From: Methylopila sp. M107
GTDB lineage: Bacteria > Pseudomonadota > Alphaproteobacteria > Rhizobiales > Methylopilaceae
DNA length: 64,000 nt
Direction: 5' to 3'
Assembly (NCBI RefSeq): GCF_000384475.1
Contig: NZ_ARWB01000001.1
Coordinates: 1,530,176 to 1,594,175 of the forward strand
Shown here: in pieces, positions 27,453 through 42,221 of the stretch
Position numbering within the stretch: the first letter of the stretch is position 1
Layout: every line of letters starts with the position of its first letter
Notes under the pieces: generated by a model
The model's input: only the letters and a program-made list of their open reading frames with translations
Told to the model about the DNA's origin: nothing
Databases searched by the model: none
Translations under genes and position numbers: made by a program

Positions 27453-28385
27453 TCAGGCCAGCAGGAAATCTCCCGCGTCGATCGTCGCGCCCTTCTTCAG
27501 GACGGCGAACACGATCGCCTCCTCGTCGCCCGATCCGTCCGGATCGTAGAGCAGTTCGCCCGTCCTGGTGTTGAAGACGATGCGCTGATCCTCGGTCTCG
27601 GCCACGCCGGTCGAGTTCGCGACGAAGGCCGCGTCGTCGAACGTCTCTCCGGCGATGGCCGAAAACACGCCGCGATCGAGCAGGATGCTGTCGACGCCGG
27701 TTTCGAAATCGCGGATGACGTCGGCCTTGCCCTCGACGAGCGCGGTCTCGAACACGAACGTGTCGGCGCCTTCGCCGCCCGTCAGCCTGTCGGCTCCCCG
27801 GCCGCCGCTCAGCCTGTCGTCGCCGTCGCCGCCGTTGAGCCGGTCGCGGCCGCCGCCGCCATGCAGCGCGTCGTCTCCCACGTCGCCGTTCAGGAGATCC
27901 CGCTTGCCGCCGCCGCTCAACCGGTCGGCGCCGTCGCCGCCGGCAAGGGAGTCGCGGCCGCCGCCGCCCTCGAAGACGTCGTTTCCGAGTCCGCCGGAGA
28001 GCCGGTCGGCTTCGTCCGAACCGAACACGAAATCGTCCCGCTCGCCGCCCGTGAAGTCGGCGGCCGAGTCGAAGGCGGTCACCGTGAATTCGGAGAGGAG
28101 ATAGGTGCCGTCGTTGAAGTCGTTGAGTTCGTACTGCCCCTCATAGGTCACGCCGTCCTCGAGGGTCGCCGAGAAGCTCATCTCCATCGGGCGGTCGTTG
28201 TCCTCGTAATGATACCCGCCGAAGTCGCCGAGGGTCGCCGAGATGTCGCCCGCCCAGAGGTAGTAATCCAACTCCGGATCGTAATACCCCTCAAGTCCGT
28301 AGAAGAAGCTGAGCCCAACCCCGGTTTCGCCGCGCACGATCGTGAATTCGGGCGTGACCCGCTGCTGGTAGTCGGTGATACGCAT
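27453..28385 (-). CDS. RTX-repeat calcium-binding protein
   Basis: 310 residues without a signal peptide. The N-terminal part (about 1-110) is a polar, aromatic-rich domain with acidic runs. Residues about 113-210 are GGxGxDxL-type nonapeptide repeats, such as GGLGNDVFEGGGGRDSLAGG and GGRGADRLTGGEGADTFVFE, which bind calcium in a parallel beta-roll. The C-terminal GDEEAIVFAVLKKGA and AGDFLLA resemble secretion-signal ends. Such proteins usually leave through a type I (ABC) exporter, but none is nearby. Function unknown; surface adhesin or enzyme scaffold are possible. Confidence 0.85.
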   Translation of the reverse strand: MRITDYQQRVTPEFTIVRGETGVGLSFFYGLEGYYDPELDYYLWAGDISATLGDFGGYHYEDNDRPMEMSFSATLEDGVTYEGQYELNDFNDGTYLLSEFTVTAFDSAADFTGGERDDFVFGSDEADRLSGGLGNDVFEGGGGRDSLAGGDGADRLSGGGKRDLLNGDVGDDALHGGGGRDRLNGGDGDDRLSGGRGADRLTGGEGADTFVFETALVEGKADVIRDFETGVDSILLDRGVFSAIAGETFDDAAFVANSTGVAETEDQRIVFNTRTGELLYDPDGSGDEEAIVFAVLKKGATIDAGDFLLA

Positions 28386-28567
28386 GGCGACCTCCCCGTC
28401 GACCCGCCGTTATCCGGCGTTTTGTCCGACGAGACACCTCGGACTCAACGGGCGCAATCCGCAGTACTACGCATCATCCTGCGCGCTCTCGCATGCGTGT
28501 TCGACGCGATCCGACCGCAACCAAGCGGGCGGACGGCGGGGTCCGCCGCCGCCCGCCCGGCTGTCCG

Positions 28568-29398
28568 TCAGGACCGGATGAAGGCGAGAAGATCGGCGTT
28601 GATGACGTCGGCGTGCGTCGTGCACATGCCGTGCGGGAAGCCCGCATAGGTCTTCAGCTCGCCGTTCCTGAGCAGCTTCGCCGACAACGGGGCCGAGTCG
28701 GCGTAAGGCACGATCTGGTCGTCGTCGCCATGCATGACGAGCGTCGGAACCTCGATCGCCTTCAGGTCCTCGGTGAAGTCGGTCTCGGAGAAGGCCTTGA
28801 TGCAGTCGTAGTGGGCCTTGGCGCCGCCGGCCATGCCCTGCCGCCACCAGTTGTCGATGACGCCCTGGCTCACCGCCGCGCCCGGACGGTTGAAGCCGTA
28901 GAAGGGGCCGGCGGGGACGTCGTAGTAGAACTGCGCGCGGTTCGCGACGAGCGCCGCGCGGAAGCCGTCGAACACCTCGATCGGCAGGCCGCCGGGATTG
29001 GCGTCCGTCTTCAGCATGATGGGCGGCACCGCGCCGATCAGCACCGCCTTCGCGACCCGGCCGGGTTTTGCGCGGGCGACATAGTGCGCGACTTCGCCGC
29101 CGCCGGTCGAATGGCCGATGTGGACCGCCTTCTTCAGGTCGAGCGCGTCGGCGAGTTCCGCGACGTCGGCCGCGTAGGTGTCCATCTCGTTGCCTTCGTC
29201 GGTCTGGCTCGACCGGCCATGCCCGCGGCGGTCGTGGGCGATGACGCGGTATCCTTCGCCGAGGAAGAACAACATCTGGTTGTCCCAGTCGTCTGCGCTC
29301 AACGGCCAGCCATGATGGAAGACGATCGGCTGGGCGTCTTTCGGACCCCAGTCCTTGTAGAAGATTTCGGTGCCATCCTTGACCTTGATCGTGCTCAT
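28568..29398 (-). CDS. alpha/beta hydrolase (chloroperoxidase-like)
   Basis: 276 residues. The fold has [25 protein letters not shown], the nucleophile elbow GHSTGGG (Ser97), [14 protein letters not shown] with the acid, and the catalytic histidine in [11 protein letters not shown] (the first or second His). This matches non-haem chloroperoxidase-type esterases. An SD site (AGGAGATGATCAG) precedes the ATG. It is divergent from the GlxA-type regulator, with 129 bp between, so that regulator may control it. Confidence 0.92.
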
Positions 29399-29527
29399 CT
29401 GATCATCTCCTGTGACCTGAAATACATGTTAGCTGAAGACGTCGCCGTCTCCTCGATGCAAAAGATGGCGTGCGAGCTTGCCGATTTCGATTGGCGATAT
29501 CGACAGAGTCCGGGCTAAAACTGACAA

Positions 29528-30511
29528 ATGGCCCCGAAACCGCCCGTCGCCGAGATCGGCGTCCTGATCTATCCGGACGCGCAGCTCGGCGCGGTGCATG
29601 GGCTGACCGACCTCTTCACCATCGCGAACCGCATGGCGCGCGAGCGGAAGGGCCCTGCCGCGCCGCGACTTCGCGTCAGCCACTGGCGCGAAAGCGGCGG
29701 CGCGGTGACGCGCGTGTTCGACACCGAGCCAGGCGGCGGCGAGCCGGCATTCGTCATCCTGCCGCCGGCCGTGACGGCGCCGATCACGGCGGCGGACGCG
29801 CAGCCCTTCGCCCGCTGGCTCCGCGAGCGGCGCGAGCGCGGCTCGACGCTCTGCTCGGTCTGCGCCGGGGCCTTCCTGCTCGCCGAGACCGGCGCGACGG
29901 ACGGGCGGACGGTCACCACCCACTGGTTCTTCGCGGAGGCCTTCGCGGCGCGTTTTCCGGACGTGCGGCTCGAGATCGACAAGCTCGTCATCGACGACGG
30001 CGACCTGATCACCGCGGGCGGGCTGATGGCCTGGACGGACCTCGGCCTGAAGCTCGTGGAGCGGCTGCTCGGCCCGACCGTGATGCTCGACGCCGCGCGC
30101 TTCCTGCTGGTCGACCCGCCAGGCCGCGAACAGCGCTATTACAGCGCCTTCTCTCCGCGTCTTCATCATGGAGACGAGGCGATCCTGAAGGTCCAGCACT
30201 GGCTGCAGGCGACCGGCGCGCATGGCGCGACGCTCGACGCGATGGCGGCGAAAGCGGGCCTCGAGCCGCGCACCTTCCTGCGCCGCTTCCGGACGGCGAC
30301 GGACATGAAGCCGACCGAATATTGCCAGCGCCTGCGCATCGGCCGTGCCCGCGAACTGTTGGAGACGACGCACGGCACCGTGGAGCAGATCGCCTTCGAG
30401 GTCGGCTACGAAGACGCCAGCGCGTTCCGAAAGCTTTTCCAGCGGATCGTGGGGCTGAGCCCGCGGGAGTTTCGTGTGCGGTTCAACGGCCCCGCGGCAC
30501 TGGCGGGCTGA
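29528..30511 (+). CDS. GlxA-type transcriptional regulator (DJ-1/PfpI plus AraC HTH)
   Basis: 327 residues. The N-terminal DJ-1/PfpI domain (about 8-185) includes the elbow CSVCAGAFLLAETG, with Cys112 at the usual position, and LVIDDGDLITAGG. The AraC/XylS double helix-turn-helix (about 220-325) reads MAAKAGLEPRTFLRRFR and VAFEVGYEDASAFRKLFQ-like (IAFEVGYEDASAFRK). These regulators bind small molecules at the DJ-1 domain and activate nearby genes. The divergent hydrolase is the obvious target. No clear SD before the ATG. Confidence 0.93.
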   Translation: MAPKPPVAEIGVLIYPDAQLGAVHGLTDLFTIANRMARERKGPAAPRLRVSHWRESGGAVTRVFDTEPGGGEPAFVILPPAVTAPITAADAQPFARWLRERRERGSTLCSVCAGAFLLAETGATDGRTVTTHWFFAEAFAARFPDVRLEIDKLVIDDGDLITAGGLMAWTDLGLKLVERLLGPTVMLDAARFLLVDPPGREQRYYSAFSPRLHHGDEAILKVQHWLQATGAHGATLDAMAAKAGLEPRTFLRRFRTATDMKPTEYCQRLRIGRARELLETTHGTVEQIAFEVGYEDASAFRKLFQRIVGLSPREFRVRFNGPAALAG

Positions 30512-30576
30512 CGACGGTTTTCACCGCCAGTCAGCCCGGAAAATCACCGTTCTCGAGGTGAGAGGAATCACCTCGA

Positions 30577-30673
30577 CCGTCATGCCCGAGCTTGTCTCGG
30601 GTATCCACGACTTGATCGTAGCGCCCTACGTTCCCAGAAAGTCGTGGATACCCGGCTCCGCCGGGCATGACGG
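30577..30673. repeat. intergenic palindromic repeat, GTCATGCCCG family
   Basis: Full-length relative of the 266-364 copy: CCGTCATGCCCGAG at the left, GGGCATGACGG at the right, and inner arms TATCCACGACTT and AAGTCGTGGATA around a short spacer. It lies between the GlxA-type gene and the DUF3060 gene. Confidence 0.88.
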
Positions 30674-30740
30674 CTTCGCGGTGTCAGCGCCGAGCAAGAA
30701 TGCTCTGACAGACCAGCGACCTCAACCGGAGACGCCCGCC

Positions 30741-31250
30741 TTGAAAACCGCATTCGCCTCGACGATCGCCGCTCTGGCGCTGACCGCCACACCCGCGCTC
30801 GCCGGGGGGATCGTGATCGAGGGCGTCCGGATATCGCGCGAAGTGGACTGCGGCGGGCAGGACGTCGTCATCGCGGGCCAGGGCAACACGATCGCGCTGA
30901 CCGGCGCCTGCGGCGCGGTCCAGGTGATGGGCTCAGATCACAAGGTGACGTTCGAGAGCGCCAAGGCGCTGCAGGTCGCCGGAGCTTCGATCGCGGCGAC
31001 AGGCGGCAAAGTCGAGGCGCTCGCGGTCGACGTCACCGACAACACCGTGAAGGCGACCGTCGCCTCATCCCACGAACCGGCGGAAGTCCGCATCTTCGGC
31101 GCGGATCAGAAGAGCGAATTGCGGTTCGAAAGCGCGGCCGCCGTCACTGTCGGCGGGGCGGCCAACGAATTGGTCTGGACAGCCGACAAAGGCGTGAAAC
31201 CGCCGTCGATCTCGAGCCTCGGCGTCGATCTGAAGATCACGCGGAAATAG
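30741..31250 (+). CDS. DUF3060 domain exported protein
   Basis: 169 residues from a TTG, chosen because GGAGA lies about 10 nt upstream and the signal peptide (ending TPALAG) starts here. The body is a right-handed beta-helix-like series (VVIAGQGNTIALTGACGAVQVMGSDHKVT, read in two parts), matching DUF3060. Two cysteines, one in each half of the first repeats, can pair. The role is unknown; such proteins are periplasmic or surface. No operon partner is seen. Confidence 0.82.
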   Translation: MKTAFASTIAALALTATPALAGGIVIEGVRISREVDCGGQDVVIAGQGNTIALTGACGAVQVMGSDHKVTFESAKALQVAGASIAATGGKVEALAVDVTDNTVKATVASSHEPAEVRIFGADQKSELRFESAAAVTVGGAANELVWTADKGVKPPSISSLGVDLKITRK

Positions 31251-31757
31251 CGGCGCTGCGCTCCCGCGCCACGAAGCGGCCTATGTGAGGCGCGTCCGCA
31301 ACAGGCGATTTTTGCGGCCGTCCGGCGAATTTCCCCACTGCCATCCACAGGCCTCAAAACCTGTTCACACCCGCTTAACCCTCTCCGTTTCGAGGCATTT
31401 CGGGGCCCGTCAGGTCGCGTCGTCAACCTTTGATTCACGATCGTCGGCACACTATATCTAGTGTCGAGACGTCATCCACAGACGAGGGATTGCGTGGATA
31501 CGGGAAAATCCGGACTCGACGCCGGACCGATTCTCGCTCTAGCTTCGGTCTGTCGCCGCCCCGACCATCGGGCGGACGGCGGCGAGCCAATCGAACGACA
31601 TCGTCCGCGCGGGCCTCTCGGCTCTGCGGCCAGCCTTTGCGCAACCCTTGCGCAGGGAACGGCTTTTTGCGCCCGGCGATGACGATGTGACAACGCCGGC
31701 TTCGGCCGGAAGCGAAGGCTCAAAAGGCCTCCGCATGACAGACATTGGGGACCGGGC
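31251..31757. other. intergenic region upstream of nrdJ
   Basis: 507 bp without a credible gene. It contains an NrdR box (31449-31464), an imperfect palindrome ATCCAC...GTGGAT (31474-31499), and a GC-rich arm pair CGCCGGCTTCGGCCGG close to nrdJ. No B12 riboswitch core (B12 box) was found in it, although NrdJ uses B12. Confidence 0.5.
31449..31464. promoter_or_regulatory. NrdR box upstream of nrdJ
   Basis: ACACTATATCTAGTGT matches the palindromic NrdR consensus (acaCwATATaTwGtgt) closely. NrdR is an ATP/dATP-binding zinc repressor of ribonucleotide reductase genes. Sites usually come in pairs about 31 bp apart; no convincing second copy is seen at the expected distance here. It lies 294 bp before the nrdJ start, so a long leader is implied. 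nrdR itself is not in the window. Confidence 0.8.
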
Positions 31758-34700
31758 ATGAAGATCGATCGTCGCTACACGAAGGCCGGCCAGTCCCCTT
31801 ACGCGGAGATCGCGTTCCGCAAGGCGACGAGCGAGATCCGCAATCCGGACGGCTCGATCGTGTTCCGCGCCGCCGACATCGACGTGCCCGAGGCCTGGAG
31901 CCAGGTCGCGGTCGACATCCTCGCCCAGAAGTATTTTCGCAAAGCAGGCGTCCCCGCGCGGCTGAAGCCGCTCGAGGAGAACACGGTCCCGTCCTGGCTC
32001 TGGCGCCATGTCGCCGATCACGACGCGCTGAACGCCCTGCCCGAGCCCGAGCGCTTCATCGGCGAAGACGACGCCCGTCAGGTGTTCACCCGGCTCGCCG
32101 GCACCTGGACCTATTGGGGCTGGGGCCAGAAGTATTTTGACACGGAAGAGGACGCCCGCGCGTTCTTCGACGAGCTCTGCTTCATGCTGGCGACCCAGAA
32201 GGCCGCGCCGAACTCGCCGCAGTGGTTCAACACGGGCCTGCACTGGGCCTATGGCGTCGACGGCCCGAGCCAGGGCCACTTCTACGCCGACCACGAGACC
32301 GGCGAAGTCCGCGCCTCGGAATCGTCCTATGAGCGGCCGCAGCCGCACGCCTGCTTCATCCAGGGCGTCTCGGACGACCTCGTCAACGACGGCGGCATCA
32401 TGGACCTCTGGGTCCGCGAGGCGCGGCTGTTCAAGTACGGCTCCGGCACCGGCTCCAACTTCAGCCAGCTGCGCGGCGAGGGCGAAAAGCTCTCCGGCGG
32501 CGGGCGCTCGTCCGGCCTCATGTCGTTCCTCAAGATCGGCGACCGCGCGGCCGGCGCCATCAAGTCGGGCGGCACCACGCGGCGCGCGGCCAAGATGGTC
32601 GTGGTCGACGCCGATCACCCCGACATCGAGACCTACGTCTCCTGGAAGGTGAAGGAGGAGCAGAAGGTCGCAGCGCTCGTCACCGGCTCCAAGATCATCA
32701 AGAAGCACCTGAAGGCGGTGCTGAAGGCCTGCGTGAACTGCGAGGGCCAGGATAAGGATTGCTGCGACCCGGAGAAGAACCCGGCGCTGAAGCGCGAGAT
32801 CAAGGCGGCCCGCAAGGCGTCGGTCTCCGACAACCTGATCAAGCGCGTGCTGCAGCAGGCGGCCCAGGGCAAGACCGAGATCGACCTCGACACCTACACC
32901 ACCGACTGGGACGGCGAGGGCTATCTGACGGTCGCGGGGCAGAACTCGAACAACTCCGTGCGCGTCACCGACCAATTCCTGCGCGCCGTCGAGACCAATG
33001 GCGACTGGAGCCTGACCAGCCGCACCACCGGGAAGGCGACCAAGACCCTGAAGGCCCGCAACCTCTGGGACCAGATCTCCTACGCGGCCTGGGCCTGCGC
33101 CGATCCCGGCATCCAGTACCACACCACCGTCAACGACTGGCACACCTGCCCGGCGTCAGGCCCGATCCGCGCCTCGAACCCGTGCTCGGAATACATGTTC
33201 CTCGACGACACGGCGTGCAATCTGGCCTCGCTGAACCTTCTGCAGTTCCGCCGCGCAGACAAGACGTTCGACGTCGAGTCCTACGCCCACGCCTGCCGGC
33301 TCTGGACGGTCGTGCTCGAAATCTCGGTGCTGATGGCGCAGTTCCCCTCGCGCCAGATCGCGGCGCTCAGCTGGCGCTACCGCACGCTCGGCATCGGCTA
33401 CGCCAATATCGGCGGCCTGCTGATGTCGTCGGGCGTCGCCTATGACAGCCGCGAAGCCCGCGCGCTCTGCGGCGCCCTTTCGGCGCTGATGACGGGCGTC
33501 TCCTACGCCACCTCCGCCGAGATGGCCGGCGAACTCGGCGCCTTCGTGGGCTATGCGGAAAACCGCGACCACATGCTGCGCGTCATCCGCAACCACGCCC
33601 GCGCCGCGCGCGGCGAGGCCGGCGGCTACGAGGCGCTCAGCACCCTGCCCGTGCCGCTCGACGTCGCGGCCCTGCCCGGCTCCGACATCGTGTCGGCCGC
33701 GCAGGACGCGTGGGCGCTCGCCTATCGCCTCGGCGAGCAGCACGGCTTCCGCAACGCGCAGGTTTCTGTCGTCGCCCCGACGGGCACGATCGGCCTGGTC
33801 ATGGACTGCGACACGACCGGCATCGAGCCCGACTTCGCGCTGGTGAAGTTCAAGAAGCTCGCCGGCGGCGGCTATTTCAAGATCATCAACCGCGCGGTTC
33901 CCGAGGCGCTGCGGGCGCTCGGCTACGCCGAGCACCAGATCGCCGAGATCGAGGCCTACGCGGTCGGCCACGGCTCGATGCGGCAGGCGCCGGGCGTGAA
34001 CCCCGTGACGCTCCGCGCCAAGGGCTTTTCGGACGAAGCCATCGAGGCGCTGGAGGGCGCTTCGAAGTCGGCCTTCGACATCAAGTTCATCTTCAACAAG
34101 TGGACGCTCGGCGAGGAGCTGCTGACGCGCGCGCTTAAAGTGCCCGCCGAGAAGCTGGAGGACCCCTCCTTCGAGCTGCTCGCCCATCTCGGCTTCACCA
34201 AGGCCGAGATCGAGGCCGCCAACACCCATGTGTGCGGCGCCATGACCGTCGAGGGCGCGCCGCACCTGCGCCCCGAGCACTATCCGGTGTTCGACTGCGC
34301 CAACCCCTGCGGGCGCACCGGCAAGCGGTTCCTCTCGGTCGAGAGCCACATCCGCATGATGGCGGCGGCGCAGCCCTTCATCTCGGGCGCGATCTCCAAG
34401 ACCATCAACATGCCGAACGACGCGACCGTCGAGGACTGCGCCGAGGCCTACAAGCTCTCCTGGAAGCTCGCGCTGAAGGCCAACGCGCTCTATCGCGACG
34501 GCTCGAAGCTCAGCCAGCCGCTCTCGGCCCAGCTGATCGCGGACGAGGAGGACGAGGACGACGCGATCGAGGCCCTCGTCGCCCAGCCGGCGGCGGCGCG
34601 CACCGCCCATGTCATCGAGAAGATCGTCGAGCGCGTGCAGCTCGTCCGCGAGCGCGAAAAGCTTCCCGGCCGCCGCAAGGGCTACACCCAGAAGGCGATC

Positions 34701-35462
34701 GTCGGCGGGCACAAGGTGTATCTCCGCACCGGCGAATATGACGACGGCCGCATCGGCGAGATCTTCATCGACATGCACAAGGAAGGTGCGGCCTTCCGCT
34801 CGGTGATGAACAACTTTGCGATCGCGGTCTCGCTCGGCCTTCAATATGGCGTGCCGCTGGAAGAATATGTGGAGGCCTTCACCTTCACGCGCTTCGAACC
34901 GGCCGGCTTCGTGCAGGGCAACGACACGATCAAGAACGCGACGTCGATCCTCGACTACGTGTTCCGCGAACTCGCGATCTCGTACCTGTCGCGCTACGAC
35001 CTCGCCCATGTCGACCCGTCCGACATCACCCCGGACGCGATCGGAACCGGCGTCGCGCAGGACCGCCCCCCGGCCCCCGCGCCGGTCTCGAAGGGCCTTG
35101 TGCGCGGCCGGCAGCTGGCGGCCGTCCCCTCCTCGCCTTCGGCTGAACCGAAGGGTTCCGCCGCGCAGTCGAACGTCACCGCGATCGGCGGCCGCCCGGC
35201 GGTCTCCGCCATTGCGGGCGGCGCCGCGACGGCCCTGAAGCGCGAGCCGGAGGTGCTGGAATCGGCCGCCCTCGGCCACCTCGCCTGGGAAGCGCCCGCG
35301 ACGCCCGCCCCGGCCGCGAAGAGCGCCGAAGCCCGCCGCATGGAAGCCCGCGTCAAGGGCTATGAGGGCGACAACTGCTCGGAATGCGGGAACTACACGA
35401 TGGTGCGGAATGGGACGTGCCTGAAGTGCGACACGTGCGGCTCGACGAGCGGGTGCAGCTGA
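31758..35462 (+). CDS. nrdJ: adenosylcobalamin-dependent ribonucleotide reductase (class II)
   Basis: 1234 residues, the long alphaproteobacterial form. It reduces ribonucleoside diphosphates to deoxy forms with a cobalamin-derived thiyl radical, independent of oxygen. Seen are [41 protein letters not shown], the active-site motif [33 protein letters not shown] (in two parts) and, at the C-terminus, the cysteine pairs CSECGNYT and [14 protein letters not shown], which shuttle disulfides. The NrdR box upstream supports control by dNTP level. A hairpin follows the stop. Confidence 0.97.
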
Positions 35463-35496
35463 GGGGCAGTCGGTTCTCCGCTCCGCGACCAGAGGA

Positions 35497-35534
35497 CGGC
35501 GGGAGTCATTCGGAAAGCAGTGTGACTCCCGCCG
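35497..35534. terminator. stem-loop after nrdJ, at the edge of the AT-rich insertion
   Basis: Perfect 12-bp inverted repeat (CGGCGGGAGTCA at 35497-35508, TGACTCCCGCCG at 35523-35534) with a 14-nt loop, 35 bp after the nrdJ stop. No T-tract follows. Native GC-rich sequence seems to end here and the AT-richer segment to begin. Confidence 0.55.
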
Positions 35535-35627
35535 CTCACACACATTGCGTGCAAGAAAGAATTACTTTTATCTTAATAAAGTTCCTGATTCGCGTGGCGA
35601 TCCGGAGACCATCCTTCGGAGCTAAAT

Positions 35628-36569
35628 ATGCGCCGAAAATCAGGCAGCAAGAACGAGTTCGGAGGCCCGTGGACAGAGATTAAACTTGACGCTATCGAGT
35701 ACTATCTCCAGTGCTATCTGAACGCCATGACGAGAACGCCGTTCAATCTATGGTATATTGACGCTTTCGCAGGTACTGGCAGGAGACTAAGGAAACGTAC
35801 GATTGGTGGCTTGGAACAGAATAGGATCATCGAAACGATAGAAGAGGAAGTTGAGGGCTCTGTCCTCAGAGCCCTTAAATTGCAACCACCGTTTCATCAT
35901 TTCGTTTTTATTGAGAAAGATCCGGACTTCCATGCGGCATTAGAAAATGCCGTTGGTCAGCCAGTTTCTGCCAAAGTTGAGTGCCTTAAAGGCGAAACTA
36001 ACCTCGTACTCCGGCGAGAGTTTTCACAAGACGAATGGCAGGGTCGCAGAGCTGCACGTCGCGGTGTCGTTTTTCTTGATCCATTTGCATTACAGGTGGA
36101 ATGGAAGACACTGGAAGTGTTGGCCTCCACGAAGGCGCTTGATGTATGGTATCTTTTTCCGCTCCGCGATGTTACGCGTCAGCTTGCCAAGAGTTATAAT
36201 GGGATAGGTCCAAAAGCACCGAAGCTTGACTCCGTATTGGGCCCCGCTTGGAGCACAGACCTTTACGCGTTTCCACTGAAAGAGGCACCAGTACAGACTG
36301 AACTTTTTGATTTGGGTGATACAGAACAGTTTGCGGAGCGTGTCGGTGATCAAAGTCACATCGAGCGCTGGTTCAAGACTCGCCTTGAGTTGATTTTTGC
36401 ACACGTTTCAGAGCCGCTACCATTATTCACAGATCCGTCTCGTCAAGCCTTCTCTCTATTTTTGGCCATCTCGAATCCGGATCGATCAGCCATAGACTTG
36501 GCAACTAAGTTTTCCGGATACGTTAGCAAAAATTTTGCGCCGGCATTTCGTCATAAGTTCTCCCGTTAA
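35628..36569 (+). CDS. tcmP: three-Cys-motif partner protein TcmP
   Basis: 313 residues. The start KNEFGGPWTEIKLDAIEYYL is typical of TcmP (TIGR04474-type), a family of unknown function found beside three-Cys-motif (DUF5131) proteins. It also shows a nucleotide-binding-like series: DAFAGTG (45-51), FIEKD (94-98) and LDPFALQ (150-156). This resembles motifs I, II and IV of class I SAM-dependent methyltransferases, with DPF where DNA enzymes have DPPY. The start has SD GGAG with 6 nt spacing. Base composition is clearly lower in GC than neighbours (28 G/C in 60 at 36181-36240). It converges with the DUF5131 gene and overlaps it by 47 bp. Confidence 0.88.
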   Translation: MRRKSGSKNEFGGPWTEIKLDAIEYYLQCYLNAMTRTPFNLWYIDAFAGTGRRLRKRTIGGLEQNRIIETIEEEVEGSVLRALKLQPPFHHFVFIEKDPDFHAALENAVGQPVSAKVECLKGETNLVLRREFSQDEWQGRRAARRGVVFLDPFALQVEWKTLEVLASTKALDVWYLFPLRDVTRQLAKSYNGIGPKAPKLDSVLGPAWSTDLYAFPLKEAPVQTELFDLGDTEQFAERVGDQSHIERWFKTRLELIFAHVSEPLPLFTDPSRQAFSLFLAISNPDRSAIDLATKFSGYVSKNFAPAFRHKFSR

Positions 36570-37272
36570 GCATGCGTCCGGTCGCATGCTTATTAACACC
36601 CCCCCACTGCTTGAAAAAGAACGCGACTTGAGCTTGTCGACACATCGCCTCGATTTCCTGTACCCAAACAGGATCCATTGACCGAGCACGAGGCCCACTT
36701 TCACCGCCGACAATGGCCCAATGGAGACCGCCTAGATCCGCTCCAGCGACAGACCCGATTAAAGGCTCAAAGGAAGCAAACCGAACTACGGCAGCGACAT
36801 TTTTCAGCTCGTCCAGGCGATCCAGTACCGCCGAGCTTTCGACACTAGTACCAAGCCAGACATTTGGCAAAACTGGCATTTGGGCCATCTCCACTCGGAG
36901 ACGCCCGGGACGCTTGGTTAGTATCTGATACGTATGCTGGGGCGTATCCGCCATAACCTTCCAAATCCTCTGAATAAAACTAGAAGGGACATCTTCATGA
37001 AATAAGTCACTCATTGAATTGACAAAAACCTTCCTAGGCTTTGACCACTTTCTCGGAGTATCAAGAGCCCGTTCATCGAGGGTTATTCGTCCAGTCCAAA
37101 CGGCCCTCCCGCCGGAGCGCCGGGTAAGTTTTTTGTACTTTTCCTGACCCATGGCCTCCAGCCTCGCTGCCATGCGCATCGCATAGCAGTTAGTGCAACC
37201 GGGGCTAACTACGGTGCAACCAGCGACCGGGTTCCAGGTCGCGTCAGTCCATTCGATCGACGACTCAGCCAT
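36523..37272 (-). CDS. three-Cys-motif protein, DUF5131 (phage Gp37/Gp68-like)
   Basis: 249 residues. It opens ESSIEWTDATWNPVAGC and holds the cluster C19-x6-C26-x2-C29 (GCTVVSPGCTNCYA). This is near the N-terminus and resembles an iron-sulfur or radical-SAM-like motif, although the spacing is not the classic CxxxCxxC. Later blocks are FVNSMSDLFHEDVP, VWLGTSVESSAVLDRLD, FASFEPLIGSV, AIVGGESGPRARSM and FFFKQWGG, all conserved in the family. A good SD (GGAG) precedes the ATG. It is AT-richer than the surroundings and converges with its partner tcmP. Activity is unknown. Confidence 0.92.
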   Translation of the reverse strand: MAESSIEWTDATWNPVAGCTVVSPGCTNCYAMRMAARLEAMGQEKYKKLTRRSGGRAVWTGRITLDERALDTPRKWSKPRKVFVNSMSDLFHEDVPSSFIQRIWKVMADTPQHTYQILTKRPGRLRVEMAQMPVLPNVWLGTSVESSAVLDRLDELKNVAAVVRFASFEPLIGSVAGADLGGLHWAIVGGESGPRARSMDPVWVQEIEAMCRQAQVAFFFKQWGGVNKHATGRMLNGRTYDEMPAQNFC

Positions 37273-37480
37273 CTGAATTCTCCTGCCGTGGAATTAGGCC
37301 TCCCGAATCGGCTAACCGACCATCGCCTCGATATGGTCCAAAACAAGAACGATCGCAAACCAGCGCTTGATCCTCTTGTAATTGGCGTAGGTAGCGCCGA
37401 TTGCTTGGCTTCCCGTCGCACTGCGCAAAATGGCTCAGGCTGACGGCACAGATAGATTGTTCGCGGGCTTTGCAGTCAGA
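37265..37480 (-). pseudogene. truncated Cys/His-rich reading frame upstream of the DUF5131 gene
   Basis: A 71-codon open frame with no ATG, GTG or TTG, closed upstream by an in-frame TAG at 37483. It contains CAVSLSHFAQCDGKPSNRR and ALVCDRSCFGPYRGDG, five cysteines and one histidine, which looks like a zinc-binding end of a real protein. Its stop (TGA) overlaps the start of the DUF5131 gene (ATGGCTGA), as coupled operon genes do. Its 5' end lies 6 bp from the next native stop codon (37489), so it seems cut at the insertion junction. No family recognised. Confidence 0.4.
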
Positions 37481-37488
37481 CTACATAC

Positions 37489-38097
37489 TTACTCCGCCGC
37501 CGCCCTCTCCCCGCCCGCGATCTCCCGTCCGATCTCCCCCGCCCGCTCCAGCGCCGTCTCCGGAAACGTTCCTTCGCCCGGCAGCAGCCGATCCGAACTC
37601 AGCAGCGGCGCGCCGCAGTAATCAAATATGCCGACGTCGATCTGGGTGCGCATGGCGGCGGCGTAGTCGCGGCGGCGATAGAGGTCCTCGTCGGCCGCGC
37701 CGATGGAGACAAGCCGCACCTTCAGCCGGCCGAGCAGCTTTTCGACCTTGCCGTCGGCGCGCTCGTCATAGGCCCAGCCATTGGTGAAGACGCGGTCGAT
37801 CCAGCCCTTGAGCTGCCCCGGCATCGCCCACCAGTAGATTGGGAACACCAGCACCAGCGTGCCGGCCCGGTCGATCCGCGCCTGCTCGGCGAGCACGTCG
37901 GCCGGCGGCGCCGCCTCCTTCCGGAACGCCGCGACGTCGGCGGCGCGCCAGCGCGGATCGAAACCTTCTGCGGAAATGTCCGCGATCTCGACCTCATGCG
38001 CCGGATCAGCCTTGTGGGCGGCGTCGGCGATCCTGGCCGCGACCGCATGGGTGAGCGAATTCGGATCGGGATGGGAAAGCACGATCAGCGTGCGCAT
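37489..38097 (-). CDS. flavodoxin-fold NAD(P)H-dependent oxidoreductase
   Basis: 202 residues. It opens MRTLIVLSHPDPNSLTHA (phosphate-binding loop for FMN/FAD) and holds LVLVFPIYWWAMPGQLKGWIDRVF in two parts, typical of Flavodoxin_2 (MdaB/KefF-like NAD(P)H:quinone reductases). It probably reduces quinones or electrophiles by two electrons. It is divergent from the TetR regulator across a 75-bp region with a clear palindrome, so it is likely that regulator's target. Confidence 0.9.
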   Translation of the reverse strand: MRTLIVLSHPDPNSLTHAVAARIADAAHKADPAHEVEIADISAEGFDPRWRAADVAAFRKEAAPPADVLAEQARIDRAGTLVLVFPIYWWAMPGQLKGWIDRVFTNGWAYDERADGKVEKLLGRLKVRLVSIGAADEDLYRRRDYAAAMRTQIDVGIFDYCGAPLLSSDRLLPGEGTFPETALERAGEIGREIAGGERAAAE

Positions 38098-38134
38098 GGG
38101 TCGTCTCCGAAGTGGTTGGAGGTTGGACAGGCGT

Positions 38135-38171
38135 GCTATATACTTTTCGTAACCTACGTTTGGTATATAGC
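38135..38171. promoter_or_regulatory. candidate TetR operator between the oxidoreductase and its regulator
   Basis: Outer arms GCTATATAC (38135-38143) and GTATATAGC (38163-38171) are a perfect 9-bp inverted repeat. Inner arms CGTA (38148) and TACG (38155) sit near the centre. It occupies the divergent promoter region and would let one TetR dimer or pair control both genes. TATAT elements may also be the -10 boxes. Confidence 0.65.
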
Positions 38172-38172
38172 C

Positions 38173-38793
38173 ATGTCAACCGATCCATCCGCCCCTTCAG
38201 CGCCCGCCCGCCAGCGACTGACGCGCGAGGAGCGGCGCCGGCAGCTGATCGAGACATCCTGGAAGATCGCGCAGGCCGAGGGCGCGGACGCGCTGACACT
38301 CGGACGGCTCGCGGACGCCGCAAACGTCGCGAAACCCGTGGTCTACGACCACTTTGGAACGCGGAACGGCCTGCTGGCGGCGCTTTATCAGGACTATGAC
38401 GGGCAGCAGTCGGTCGGCATGGCGCAAGCGCTGGCGGCGGGGCCGGAGACGCTCGCCGACAAGGCGAAAATCATCGCGGCGGCCTATGTCGACTGCGTGA
38501 TGGCGCAGGGCGAAAAACTGTTCGGCGTCGCGGCGGCGCTCGAGGGCTCGGCGGAAATGGCGGCGGTGAAGCGAAGCTGCGACGCCGCATTCCTCGCCCA
38601 GTGCAAGGCGGCGCTCGATCCGCTTGCCGACGGCGGCGTGTCGCGCACCGGCCTTCTCGGCGCCCTCGGCGCGGCCGAAGCGCTGTCGCATGCGGCGGCC
38701 GCCGGCGACATCGGCGCGGACGAGGCGAAGGCCGAACTCGCCGCCGTGTTCTTCGCGACCGCGCAACGGCCGGAGGCAGGAAAGGCCGGCTGA
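38173..38793 (+). CDS. TetR family transcriptional regulator
   Basis: 206 residues from the ATG at 38173. The N-terminal HTH (about 20-65) reads EERRRQLIETSWKIAQAEG, then LADAANVAKPVVYDHFGTRNGLLAAL, standard for TetR. The C-terminal ligand-binding helices are Ala-rich. It is divergent from the oxidoreductase and probably represses it until a quinone-like or electrophilic inducer binds. A palindrome at 38135-38171 is the likely operator, overlapping the regulator's own promoter. Confidence 0.94.
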   Translation: MSTDPSAPSAPARQRLTREERRRQLIETSWKIAQAEGADALTLGRLADAANVAKPVVYDHFGTRNGLLAALYQDYDGQQSVGMAQALAAGPETLADKAKIIAAAYVDCVMAQGEKLFGVAAALEGSAEMAAVKRSCDAAFLAQCKAALDPLADGGVSRTGLLGALGAAEALSHAAAAGDIGADEAKAELAAVFFATAQRPEAGKAG

Positions 38794-38813
38794 GCCGCCC
38801 TCACCTCAGCCGA

Positions 38814-39011
38814 TCAGCGGAAGGCGGCGAGCCCGCGCGCATAGCCCGTCGACACCCTGGAGTGCAGCCGCACGACCTGATGCTCCAGCGCGGCGTTCTC
38901 CGCGAGCAGCGCCATGACGGTCGCCCTCGGGTCTCCGTCGCAGGCGGCGATCGCGATGTCGGCCGCAGCCTCCAGTTCGTCGGCGGGGATGGTCTTCGCG
39001 GCTTCGGCCAT
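38814..39011 (-). CDS. small protein of 65 residues, unknown function
   Basis: MAEAAKTIPADELEAAADIA, then an Ala-rich helix, CDGDPRATVMALLAENAALEH and a basic end. A well placed SD (AGGAG with 6 nt spacing) supports translation. The heptad-like LLAENAALEHQVVRLHSRV suggests a short coiled coil. Convergent with the TetR gene. No family recognised. Confidence 0.6.
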   Translation of the reverse strand: MAEAAKTIPADELEAAADIAIAACDGDPRATVMALLAENAALEHQVVRLHSRVSTGYARGLAAFR

Positions 39012-39209
39012 GGGACGCTCCTGAACTCATGAAGAGCGCCATCGTGCCCGAGTCGGGCGCCCTCTCGCCACCCGCGAAGGCCATCCCACACAGAAAGTTC
39101 GCGGCCAAATTTCCATAAGCGTCTTTTATACTAAGAAGAAGGCCTGCCCCGTATCGGCGGGACGGCGGACTGGGCCAATGTCCGCCCGCACCCACTGCGG
39201 AGACGTCTC

Positions 39210-40379
39210 ATGCTCACGGAAACCGAATTCGTCATCGTCGGCCTCGGCGCCATGGGCGCGGCCTCAGCCTATCAGCTGGCGAAGCGCGACACGTCGGTCG
39301 TCGGGGTCGACCGGTTCGCGCCCCCGCATGACCTCGGCTCCAGCCATGGCGAGACGCGCATCACGCGCGCCGCCGTCGGCGAAGGCGGGGCCTATGCGCC
39401 GCTGGTCGCGGCCTCGCACCGGATCTGGCGGGAGCTGGAGGCCGAGACCGGCGAGGACCTGTTCCGGGCCTGCGGCGCGATCGTGATCGCGCCGGGATCG
39501 GGCGCGAGTTCGCATCACGGCAAGCCGGACTTCGTCGCCCGCTCGACCGAGGTCGCGGTCGAGAACGGCATCCCGCACGAGACCATGACGGGCGCCGAGG
39601 CCAAGAAGCGCTTCCCGCAATTCGTGGGGCTGAGCGGCGACGAAAAAGTCTATTACGAGCCCGGCGGCGGCTATGTGTTCCCCGAAAAATGCATCGGCGC
39701 GCAGCTCGCGCGCGCCGCGGCGCTCGGCGCCGAGATCCGGACCGGCGAGGAAGTGCTGTCGCTGGCGCAGGACGGCGACCGCGTGGTGGTCGAGACCTCG
39801 CGGGGGAAAATCATCGCGCGGCACGCGATCGTCTCGGCCGGCGGCTGGGCCTCGAACCTGCTGGGCTCCCCGTTCGACCGGCTGCTCACCGTCAACCGCC
39901 AGGTGCTGCACTGGTTCGAGCTCGACGACATGTCGGCCTATTCCACCGACGCGCCCGTCTTCATCTGGATGCACGGGCCCGGCGACGTCGACTATCTTTA
40001 CGGCTTCCCGCCCCTGCCGGGCGATCCGAGGATCAAGGTCGCGACCGAGCAGTACGCGGCCTCCACGACCGCCGACGATCTTGTGCGCGACGTCGGCGCC
40101 GAGGAGAGCGGCTGGATGCACGAGACCCATGTCGCGGGCCGCCTCGCCGACGCCTCGACCCGCGTCGCGAAGGCCGCCGCCTGCCTTTACACGGTGACGC
40201 CCGACAACGGCTTCATCATCGACCGGCATCCGCACATGGACCGCGTCGTCGCGATCTCCGCCTGCTCGGGCCACGGCTTCAAGCATTCGGCGGGCATCGG
40301 CGAGGCTGTGGCGAAGGCCGTCGTCGACGGCGCGTGGGGCCCGCTCGAAGCGTTTTCGGTCGGGCGGTTCGGCGGCTGA
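39210..40379 (+). CDS. solA: SolA-like N-methyl-amino acid oxidase (monomeric sarcosine oxidase family)
   Basis: 389 residues. FAD-binding GLGAMGAASAYQLAKRDTSVVGVDR (two parts) at the N-terminus, GETRITR, a second dinucleotide strand near 190, and the covalent-flavin cysteine in SACSGHGFKHS near residue 350. This fits monomeric sarcosine oxidase or N-methyltryptophan oxidase. It oxidatively demethylates an N-methyl amino acid giving formaldehyde and peroxide. The substrate cannot be decided from sequence, so the symbol is by similarity only. Confidence 0.88.
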   Translation: MLTETEFVIVGLGAMGAASAYQLAKRDTSVVGVDRFAPPHDLGSSHGETRITRAAVGEGGAYAPLVAASHRIWRELEAETGEDLFRACGAIVIAPGSGASSHHGKPDFVARSTEVAVENGIPHETMTGAEAKKRFPQFVGLSGDEKVYYEPGGGYVFPEKCIGAQLARAAALGAEIRTGEEVLSLAQDGDRVVVETSRGKIIARHAIVSAGGWASNLLGSPFDRLLTVNRQVLHWFELDDMSAYSTDAPVFIWMHGPGDVDYLYGFPPLPGDPRIKVATEQYAASTTADDLVRDVGAEESGWMHETHVAGRLADASTRVAKAAACLYTVTPDNGFIIDRHPHMDRVVAISACSGHGFKHSAGIGEAVAKAVVDGAWGPLEAFSVGRFGG

Positions 40380-40384
40380 GCCGC

Positions 40385-40412
40385 GCCGGGTCGTGATTGC
40401 GCGCGACCCGGC
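40385..40412. terminator. bidirectional stem-loop between solA-like and cupredoxin genes
   Basis: GCCGGGTCG (40385-40393) and CGACCCGGC (40404-40412) form a perfect 9-bp stem with a 10-nt loop between two convergent stop codons. No T-tract. Confidence 0.5.
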
Positions 40413-40430
40413 CGCCCTGGCCTCGTCAGA

Positions 40431-40808
40431 TCACTCGACGATGACCTTACCCTTCATCACCGCCGAATGCGGCGTGCAGATGTAGTTGTATGTGCCTGGC
40501 TCGATGAACTTCACGGCGTAAGAGTCGCCCGTGTTCAGCATAGGACCCATGGCGCCGGGAATCGTCTTGGCGGGGCCGGCGCGGAAGTGGACGTTGTGGG
40601 CGGTCCCGGCTTCCTGGTTCTTCCAGCGCACGATCTGGCCGGACTTGATCTTCACCTCCGGCACCGTGAACGACATGCTGTCGATCGGCACCTCGGTGAT
40701 CTCGCCCGTGACGGTCGCCGGGTCCTTCAGGATCTCGACGGGATCGGCGGCGCGGGCGACGCTGAGCGGCAGCGCGACGCACAGCGCCGCGAGCAAGACT
40801 GAACGCAT
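40431..40808 (-). CDS. periplasmic cupredoxin (pseudoazurin/plastocyanin-like)
   Basis: 125 residues from the ATG at 40808. Signal peptide ends about VARAAD. The single beta-barrel carries type 1 copper ligands His71 (TAHNVHF), Cys111 and His114 (CTPHSAVM) and Met118. It probably carries electrons in the periplasm. The N-terminal half, with TVPEVKIKSGQIVRWKNQ, is standard. No obvious redox partner gene is adjacent; the neighbouring oxidase is cytoplasmic. Confidence 0.9.
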   Translation of the reverse strand: MRSVLLAALCVALPLSVARAADPVEILKDPATVTGEITEVPIDSMSFTVPEVKIKSGQIVRWKNQEAGTAHNVHFRAGPAKTIPGAMGPMLNTGDSYAVKFIEPGTYNYICTPHSAVMKGKVIVE

Positions 40809-41189
40809 GGTCGAAAACCTCGAATGCCGGATGCTTGAAACGCGTCGCCGTACCGGACCGTCGGCGACGTCGAACAGACGAGCGGCGGCGATCGCGCCAG
40901 CTCGGATACGCGCCGACGCCATGCTTTCACTGCAGTCCGCCGCTGAATTTACGGACGCAGACCTAAGGAGCGCCGCGCATGACTTACCGAGAGCTGAGGC
41001 CGCCCGTCCGAAATTGAATGACGCCAAACATCAATACTGATGTCTGACAACACCACACATAACCGTGAGAAGCAGAGTGAGCAACATCCAACAATTCTAT
41101 TTTGTTCAAGTAAGAATGATCATCATATTCCAATTCGAATTCTCCGCCGGCGGCGCCGCGTTGTCCTTGGCGACGCTGGTCCCCGCGCC
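40809..41189. other. intergenic region with an AT-rich block
   Basis: 381 bp between the cupredoxin gene and the esterase gene, both leftward. The segment 41030-41145 is markedly AT-richer than surroundings and probably holds the cupredoxin promoter. No convincing gene: short frames here lack SD sites and family resemblance. Confidence 0.4.
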
Positions 41190-42221
41190 CTATCGGGCGG
41201 GCGTCGCGCGGAACTGCCTCGCCGCGAACGCCCACGCCATTCTGGTCGCGTCCGGTCCCTCAGGGTCGCTATAGGCGTGTTTCGGCGCGCCGCCGCTCCA
41301 GGCGTGGCCGAGGCCGGTGACGTCGCACAGCGTCACCATCGTCCGGCCGCGGCGCTTGAAATCGGTCACCCGCATCGCATGGCGGCGCCCGCGCTGCACC
41401 GCGCGCGTTCCCGCGGGCCGCGCATCCATCGCAACCGCCCACATGGCGGCGGCGGCCACGGCGTTGCGGGACGACACCACGGCGTCGCGGTCGCCATGCA
41501 GCACCAGCAGCGGCGGCAGCCCGAGCGTTCTCGGGATCGACGGCGCACGCTGGCCTCGCATCGCGCCCAACGCCATTTTGGGCGAGGTCGCAGCGCCTGG
41601 CGCGACGCCTGAGTGCATGACCACAGCCTTGAACCGTGCCGGATAGTGCGTCGCGAGCAGCGCCGCCATGCCGGCCCCGGCCGACAGCCCCGCCACGGCG
41701 ACGCGCGCCGGGTCCGCCCGATAGAGCAGGCAGACCTGATCGATCGCCGCCATCAGGGTCGCGGCCTCGGCGAGCGATTTGCCGGATGCGACGTCGTACC
41801 AGTTCCAGCAGTTGTTGGAGTGCGCCAGCAGCTCCTGCTCGGGGTAGAGCACGAGGAACCCTTCCCGCGCCGCGAGGCTGTTCATGCGCGTCGCCGCCGC
41901 GAACCCCCGCCCGGTCTGACCGCAGCCATGCAGCATGACCATCAGCGGCGGCGTCTCGGCGAAGGCGAAGCGCAGGCGCGCCGGGCGGAACAGGTGGTAG
42001 CGGCGCGCGCCGCCGGGCCCGACCGCGACGCCTCCAAGCCAGTCCCCGTCGCCGGGCGGAGGCCGGAGCTGCTCGGCGGCGGCGCGGGCCGCCTGCTTCG
42101 ACACCTGGCCCGCGGCCCGCGTCGCGTTCTTCACCGACGCCTTGACGGTCGCCTTCGCCATCGCGCCGAGGTTTCGCCGATAGGCGCGGGTCAGGGAGGC
42201 TGCGAAGGACCGGCGGACCAT
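41190..42221 (-). CDS. PHB-depolymerase family esterase
   Basis: 343 residues. After a basic, Ala-rich N-terminus (helical, about 1-60, without a clear signal peptide) comes PPLMVMLHGCGQTGRGF (oxyanion region), the nucleophile GLSAGAG (Ser180), LHGDRDAVV with the acid, and GLGHAWSGG with the histidine. This matches the LpqC/PHB-depolymerase esterase family (PF10503), often active on short hydroxyalkanoates or feruloyl esters. Substrate unknown. The basic N-terminus is unusual for a secreted depolymerase and suggests intracellular or granule-bound use. Confidence 0.87.
   Translation of the reverse strand: MVRRSFAASLTRAYRRNLGAMAKATVKASVKNATRAAGQVSKQAARAAAEQLRPPPGDGDWLGGVAVGPGGARRYHLFRPARLRFAFAETPPLMVMLHGCGQTGRGFAAATRMNSLAAREGFLVLYPEQELLAHSNNCWNWYDVASGKSLAEAATLMAAIDQVCLLYRADPARVAVAGLSAGAGMAALLATHYPARFKAVVMHSGVAPGAATSPKMALGAMRGQRAPSIPRTLGLPPLLVLHGDRDAVVSSRNAVAAAAMWAVAMDARPAGTRAVQRGRRHAMRVTDFKRRGRTMVTLCDVTGLGHAWSGGAPKHAYSDPEGPDATRMAWAFAARQFRATPAR

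Follow-up and report, generated by a model that had tools for sequence, protein, structure and literature searches.

Described counterparts of the TcmP/DUF5131 pair

The two adjoining genes encoding TcmP and DUF5131 proteins in a 64-kb stretch of the Methylopila sp. M107 genome (hereafter, the window) form a pair that is not new, being catalogued in PADLOC (2023) as the candidate PDC-M41A/B. This catalogue entry has no description and therefore names the pair without explaining it. In passages of two papers, PDC models are treated as unpublished or mostly untested candidates (PMC11811056, PMC12988326); several other PDCs equal systems that have since been named, PDC-M41 not being among those listed in the passage concerned (PMC11811056). 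The three-Cys-motif name is mentioned in three papers (PMC12429752, PMC12445080, PMC7387457). Neither a study of TcmP nor a paper with DUF5131 or PDC-M41 as terms was found in the open-licence PMC literature. The analysis described here suggests that the two proteins may form an S-adenosylmethionine (SAM)-dependent nucleic-acid modification pair, carried as prophage and defence-island cargo and engaged in conflict with phages; taken as a whole chain, this reading could equally well prove right or wrong. An earlier note on this DNA had proposed a two-protein nucleic-acid modification or anti-phage module, and this interpretation is partly supported.

According to the PADLOC scan, the window TcmP matches PDC-M41A (2.1e-63) and the window DUF5131 matches PDC-M41B (7.9e-107). 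Both components are thus present in adjoining genes, an assignment made by component matches and adjacency, without PADLOC's own distance and coverage rules. Both proteins and their side-by-side position are alike in the window and in PDC-M41, with no difference in the features compared. The window DUF5131 additionally matches PDC-M30B (1.6e-98), and a TcmP-family protein of another locus (L063:6907-8151) matches PDC-M30A. PDC-M30 differs, however, in its TcmP component: the window protein has 313 amino acids (aa) and no Pfam match, whereas the long type has 415 aa and the PF22560 domain (L063, L065). This longer type of TcmP (~415 aa) was observed in L063:6904-8151, L065:8180-9427 and L260:21152-22408. 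The two scanned proteins, those of L063 and L065, contain a C-terminal GMT-like winged helix-turn-helix domain (PF22560), and in both loci the long TcmP is located beside a short TcmP and DUF5131.

Pairing of TcmP with radical-SAM genes

The association of the two families was analyzed in 170 TcmP loci, comprising the window, 80 genome contigs, all 79 viral contigs returned, nine plasmid/phage records (from 12 matches, with three near-duplicates left out) and one relative genome. The genome contigs were the top 80 among 527 relatives, and this set therefore leans toward the branch of the window. DUF5131 was found within 3 kb of TcmP in 151/170 loci, and in 145 of those within 300 bp, which bears out the statement of the earlier note that the two are known to occur together, as does the PDC-M41A/B entry. 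Among the 19 loci without DUF5131, 14 adjoin a gene from two other radical-SAM groups, four without a partner (L081, L098, L202, L212) are at or almost at a contig end, and one (L143) is internal, has no radical-SAM gene and is a true exception.

Three of the replacement partners were scanned against Pfam, and all three matched Radical_SAM above the cut-off; two of them also matched DUF5131 and one matched SPL (L114, 0.0017), all below the cut-off. Four scanned against NCBIfam showed sub-cut-off matches to radical-SAM proteins of the PA0069/Rv2578c type. In a TcmP tree (a quick LG+G4 reconstruction with SH-aLRT support only), the radical-SAM half of the pair switches family at two or more points, whichever the direction of the switch, and the methyltransferase half is constant. 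One substitute radical-SAM group was seen beside TcmP in L110, L114, L134, L138, L142, L185, L187, L188, L198, L200 and L226, with hosts in Bacillota, Spirochaetota and Parcubacteria as well as viral contigs; the two sequences of this group that were read (L110, L114) have the cysteine spacing C-x3-C-x3-C.

In addition, an even, class-wide sample of 385 genomes was examined, TcmP being counted above the family cut-off. DUF5131 is present within 1 kb of 29 of 30 TcmP genes, and the thirtieth starts 138 bases away from the end of its contig. Six sub-cut-off TcmP matches were dropped from the sample, and none of their six genomes matches DUF5131. Only 29 of 60 DUF5131 matches, in turn, have TcmP nearby. 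The difference between these two proportions indicates a one-sided dependence, of TcmP on a radical-SAM neighbour but not the other way round. Sequence identities of TcmP and DUF5131 are correlated across 67 loci (Spearman 0.355; 0/499 permutations as high), which supports joint inheritance of the two proteins and does not by itself show contact between them.

Predicted structure of TcmP

The TcmP gene (35628-36569, forward strand) encodes a 313-aa protein with motif I DAFAGTG and motif IV DPFA. It belongs to the family TIGR04474, with 148.3 bits against a curated cut-off of 53. The first structural match of its model is RlmJ, the 23S rRNA m6A2030 methyltransferase, and the RlmJ SAM-contact residues S100, E118, D143 and D164 are kept in TcmP. 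The four aligned SAM-contact positions, together with K19, are 94-100% conserved in 100 TcmP sequences. The model thus points to an RlmJ-like class I SAM methyltransferase fold, in agreement with the methyltransferase-like motifs that had been noticed earlier. TcmP differs from RlmJ, however, in the lack of the DPPY motif IV, in overall sequence (14-16% identity) and in being located nearly always beside a radical-SAM gene. For the catalytic Y4 and H6 of the N-terminal tail of RlmJ, the comparison covered column conservation in TcmP, with H present in 65/100 sequences in the column of window position 9.

Motif IV bears on the alternative that TcmP is a non-catalytic methyltransferase fold, only recruiting DUF5131 to its target. 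Such a role would agree with a motif IV that is unlike that of RlmJ and variable (position 153, Y 74 and F 26; position 154, G 83 and A 14; n = 100), and with the faster divergence of TcmP compared to DUF5131 (mean identity 0.37 vs. 0.53). Nevertheless, the high conservation of the SAM-contact positions and K19 argues against it, and we consider a non-catalytic TcmP quite unlikely.

As for other folds, the model matches following RlmJ are Trm1 (14.5), Hen1 (13.6) and SgvM (13.4). Trm1, the tRNA guanine-26 methyltransferase, was considered as the second-nearest fold and kept as a lead only. Its score and that of Hen1 are less than 1 apart, so that no special kinship of TcmP with Trm1 is indicated; the two proteins share 10% identity, and the window protein has DPFA.

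Predicted structure of DUF5131

The DUF5131 gene (36523-37272, reverse strand) encodes a 249-aa protein that belongs to PF07505, matching the full profile with 320 bits (gathering cut-off 28.9). Its model shows a radical-SAM barrel, for which the closest structure is spore photoproduct lyase. The motif C-x6-C-x2-C is present in 73/73 DUF5131 sequences, and the cysteines predicted to hold the cluster are residues 18, 25 and 28 of the model, numbered without the start Met. The protein is therefore modelled as a radical-SAM-fold protein with a predicted 4Fe-4S/SAM site, and the cysteine cluster pointed out in the earlier note finds a structural counterpart in it. Taken together, the two models contain a SAM-type site (TcmP) and a cluster-type site (DUF5131), as that note would lead one to expect.

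Spore photoproduct lyase has the nearest barrel, yet DUF5131 differs from it in the C-x6-C-x2-C spacing, in identity (12%) and in the lack of a match to Pfam SPL (PF20903) at E<=1. The likeness raises the possibility of a repair or protection cassette, in which DUF5131 would, like spore photoproduct lyase, reverse a lesion or hostile modification, with TcmP as its binding partner or finishing methyltransferase; the pair would then protect phage or plasmid nucleic acid and not attack it. The first match of TcmP is, however, an RNA methyltransferase, and several pairs adjoin defence systems, so that a repair function appears unlikely.

Viperin matches the DUF5131 fold more weakly than spore photoproduct lyase, and DUF5131 is paired with an RlmJ-like protein. 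By analogy with viperin, the pair might produce a modified nucleotide poisoning phage polymerases, TcmP methylating or handling the product. RlmJ, as the first match of TcmP, has RNA and not free nucleotides as its substrate; this speaks against such a product, which we regard as improbable. Modification of nucleic acid by both proteins is the reading preferred here.

Tail-to-tail arrangement

In the window, the coding regions of TcmP and DUF5131 overlap tail to tail by 47 bases (36523-36569), a feature not mentioned in the earlier note. In the 170-locus collection, a tail-to-tail arrangement with the genes within 300 bp of each other was seen for 107 pairs; in 105, the genes overlap, by 4 to 80 bases. 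Among non-redundant convergent rows, 61/62 overlap, in all three phases. The background was counted by eye in five 49-kb annotated stretches, the plasmid gene tables being incomplete; it contained 23 convergent neighbours, five overlapping, and 13 within 300 bp, five overlapping. The comparison of 61/62 with 5/13 gives a Fisher p = 6e-7, the related rows not being independent. Hence, convergent overlap is common generally and nearly universal in these pairs.

On the TcmP tree, the convergent label requires at least eight changes, against ~30 for shuffled labels, and 60 of the 62 convergent rows belong to one branch of 67 rows (support 90). The class sample of 29 pairs contains 20 with DUF5131 first and five with TcmP first, both in one direction, and four convergent. 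The tree clustering and these orientations indicate that the tail-to-tail overlap is a stable trait of the branch of the window and not of the family; a family-wide rule of convergent architecture was rejected, with only 4/29 class-sample pairs convergent. In Synechococcus phage Ssp-JY39 (L061:2680-4298), the pair lies upstream of a Bet recombination gene, its two genes being arranged tail to tail and overlapping by 46 bases; identity to the window is 69% for DUF5131 and 34% for TcmP.

A hairpin with a 10-bp stem (36567-36592; -15.3 kcal/mol for a 50-base stretch) begins at the TcmP stop codon within the DUF5131 coding region and is specific to the window copy. A conserved RNA hairpin at the junction was rejected using 61 overlapping pairs, with 20 mononucleotide shuffles each: the mean z-score stayed between -0.35 and +0.24 across the whole set of 18 offsets (-160 to +180).

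Phage and defence-gene context

Proteins encoded near the pair in viral contigs were compared with known families; 148 of 197 open reading frames (ORFs) were scanned, and the best 25 of 160 families were listed, one protein possibly matching several families and no control set being included. Among the families listed, repressors are at the top (phrog_4 with ten members, phrog_8 with eight and a CI-like repressor with six), followed by integrase, invertase, tail and methyltransferase families. Such a repressor-led neighbourhood fits cargo sites of temperate phages.

In six of seven annotated plasmid records containing TcmP and a radical-SAM partner, defence or restriction-type genes are located within ~6 kb of the pair; these records are not a random sample, and unannotated ones were left out. 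According to the record annotation, the neighbours are BREX in one case, two Abi genes in another, a DNA methyltransferase in a third, and a DNA methyltransferase with a helicase and a GIY-YIG nuclease in a fourth. In the other two, which were scanned with PADLOC, the neighbours are Hachiman HamA/HamB (2.9e-97 and 0) in one record and a helicase, DUF262 and ISP-type restriction in the other. The Acetobacter record has no annotated defence gene within ~6 kb of the pair. In Sinorhizobium meliloti, the TcmP gene SMa2243 adjoins the defence gene hna (SMa2245) in a published table and is approximately twofold up in the nolR+ strain there (PMC12445080).

A strain-specific insertion in the genome

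The window belongs to a genome of one contig (4.45 Mb, G000). The segment 35540-37488 has a G+C content of 50.6%, compared with a mean of 68.3% (standard deviation 2.0, minimum 63.0%) for 1949-base windows across the remainder of the window. The counts given earlier for the drop in G+C, 28/60 at 36181-36240 and 44/60 at 34261-34320, are both exact. Similarity to congener DNA ends at 35463-35469 and restarts at 37499-37509, leaving a unique stretch of ~2.0 kb (~35463-37498) between two native flanks. The left one is a 1234-aa ORF (31758-35462, forward strand), labelled nrdJ in the earlier note, and congener similarity stops at its stop codon; its 3' DNA is present in 13/13 genomes of the genus (own included), with 84-89% DNA identity for the best match in each of the 12 congeners. 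The right one encodes a flavodoxin-2/FMN-reductase-like oxidoreductase (37489-38097, reverse strand). An insertion between these two genes, as had been claimed, is thereby confirmed.

TcmP (E<=0.001) was found only in the own genome of the window among the same 13 genomes, one per species. Since it is absent from the 12 others and the composition is foreign, an ordinary chromosomal gene pair was rejected. The comparison with relatives proposed in the earlier note, made here between species, thus does not refute its reading, and the 2.0-kb stretch is best read as a small horizontally acquired cassette of PDC-M41 type.

TcmP and DUF5131 are the only full genes recognised in the cassette, the remaining ORFs, inspected by eye, being short or overlapping these two; none of the ORFs of 35463-37498 looked integrase-like. 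Both observations agree with what had been noted before. The last 216 bases before the right flank (37273-37488) have a non-native composition (53.7% G+C) and no recognised gene. Just past the left-flank gene, a 12-bp perfect inverted repeat, still G+C-rich, is located at 35497-35534 and is a possible terminator. No convincing flanking or attachment repeat was found at the insertion ends, and no sigma-70 promoter was found in 35400-37600 (1.6 expected).

A clean empty site was not found in the congeners. The distance from the left gene to the oxidoreductase is 2.2 kb in G010, 3.0 kb in G009 and 4.5 kb in G004, with intervening DNA dissimilar to the window insertion; the G010 gene at the equivalent place has no match in G000. 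In the stretches past the stop codon of the left gene that were compared by eye, 0/12 congeners match the window and most differ among themselves, so the site after this gene looks variable in the genus. Congener loci L046 and L048 have in common a stretch of ~40 bases after the nrdJ-like gene, perhaps the end of a mobile element, and L050 and L054 resemble it by eye.

Two more genes, encoding a longer DUF5131 type (355-aa open frame), are located outside the window in the same genome (G000:C1, 691829-692737 and 734336-735244; L055 and L056). They sit in two copies of a 9.3-kb stretch, 99.97% identical, which looks like a duplicated mobile element. In a congener (G004:C1, 4874431-4875406; L058), DUF5131 appears as two adjoining incomplete matches, to profile positions 17-124 and 124-243, and thus looks broken.

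Proposed function and significance

We propose that DUF5131 would be a radical-SAM enzyme altering a nucleobase or a nucleotide by radical chemistry. TcmP would either add a methyl group at this site or serve to bind and present the nucleic acid. Most likely, TcmP requires the radical-SAM step or works on its outcome, because it is rarely found without a radical-SAM neighbour, whereas DUF5131 is often found without TcmP. RNA would be a likelier target than DNA, given that RNA is the substrate of RlmJ, clearly the first match of TcmP. The pair probably serves in conflict with phages or other mobile elements, being carried as cargo of prophages and defence islands. Of this picture, the pairing, the models, the conserved residues, the patchy distribution and the strain-specific insertion are observations, and catalysis, the sequence of reactions, the substrate and defence are inferred.

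Several observations weigh against this reading, in addition to the unpaired locus L143 and the DPFA found in the window in place of DPPY. In the Foldseek comparison, DUF5131 matches spore photoproduct lyase with E=0.011, and no row is below 0.001. The window DUF5131 has no match to Pfam Radical_SAM (PF04055) at E<=1, and its cysteine spacing is not the standard C-x3-C-x2-C. The TcmP model matches following RlmJ are tied within ~1 and have mixed substrates. The preference for RNA is weak, since the active site of RlmJ has been described as closer to that of DNA than of RNA m6,2A methyltransferases (PMC3814359). Of the ten flanking proteins of the window copy (27456-42221), none matches PADLOC at 1e-5; the defence-island location that the earlier note proposed to check thus holds for some relatives, which are located beside defence genes, and not for the window copy. 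In PADLOC scans of ORFs near to and far from pairs, 148 near ones (43,995 residues, from a total of 275) matched 152 models and 148 far ones (36,033 residues, from a total of 188) matched 62; as one protein may match many models, each list of models is given as 25 entries, the gene calls are crude and the near set includes a few TcmP/DUF5131, these numbers are not a defence-gene count and give no countable enrichment.

As a bolder extension, which we offer tentatively and with some doubt, the pair would represent a widespread system of two enzymes, immune or counter-immune, with new chemistry. In it, the radical-SAM enzyme and the RlmJ-like methyltransferase would build a hypermodified RNA or DNA base blocking phage translation or genome use, and the tail-to-tail overlap would perhaps provide mutual antisense control.

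The annotation of TcmP and DUF5131 consists only of a cysteine motif and a DUF number, and no mechanism accompanies their listing as a defence candidate. The analysis adds a concrete prediction, namely, a radical-SAM step combined with methyl transfer of the RlmJ kind, in which TcmP relies on its radical-SAM partner; this makes the pair testable. Should the prediction prove correct, bacterial immunity or phage counter-defence would gain a modification chemistry.
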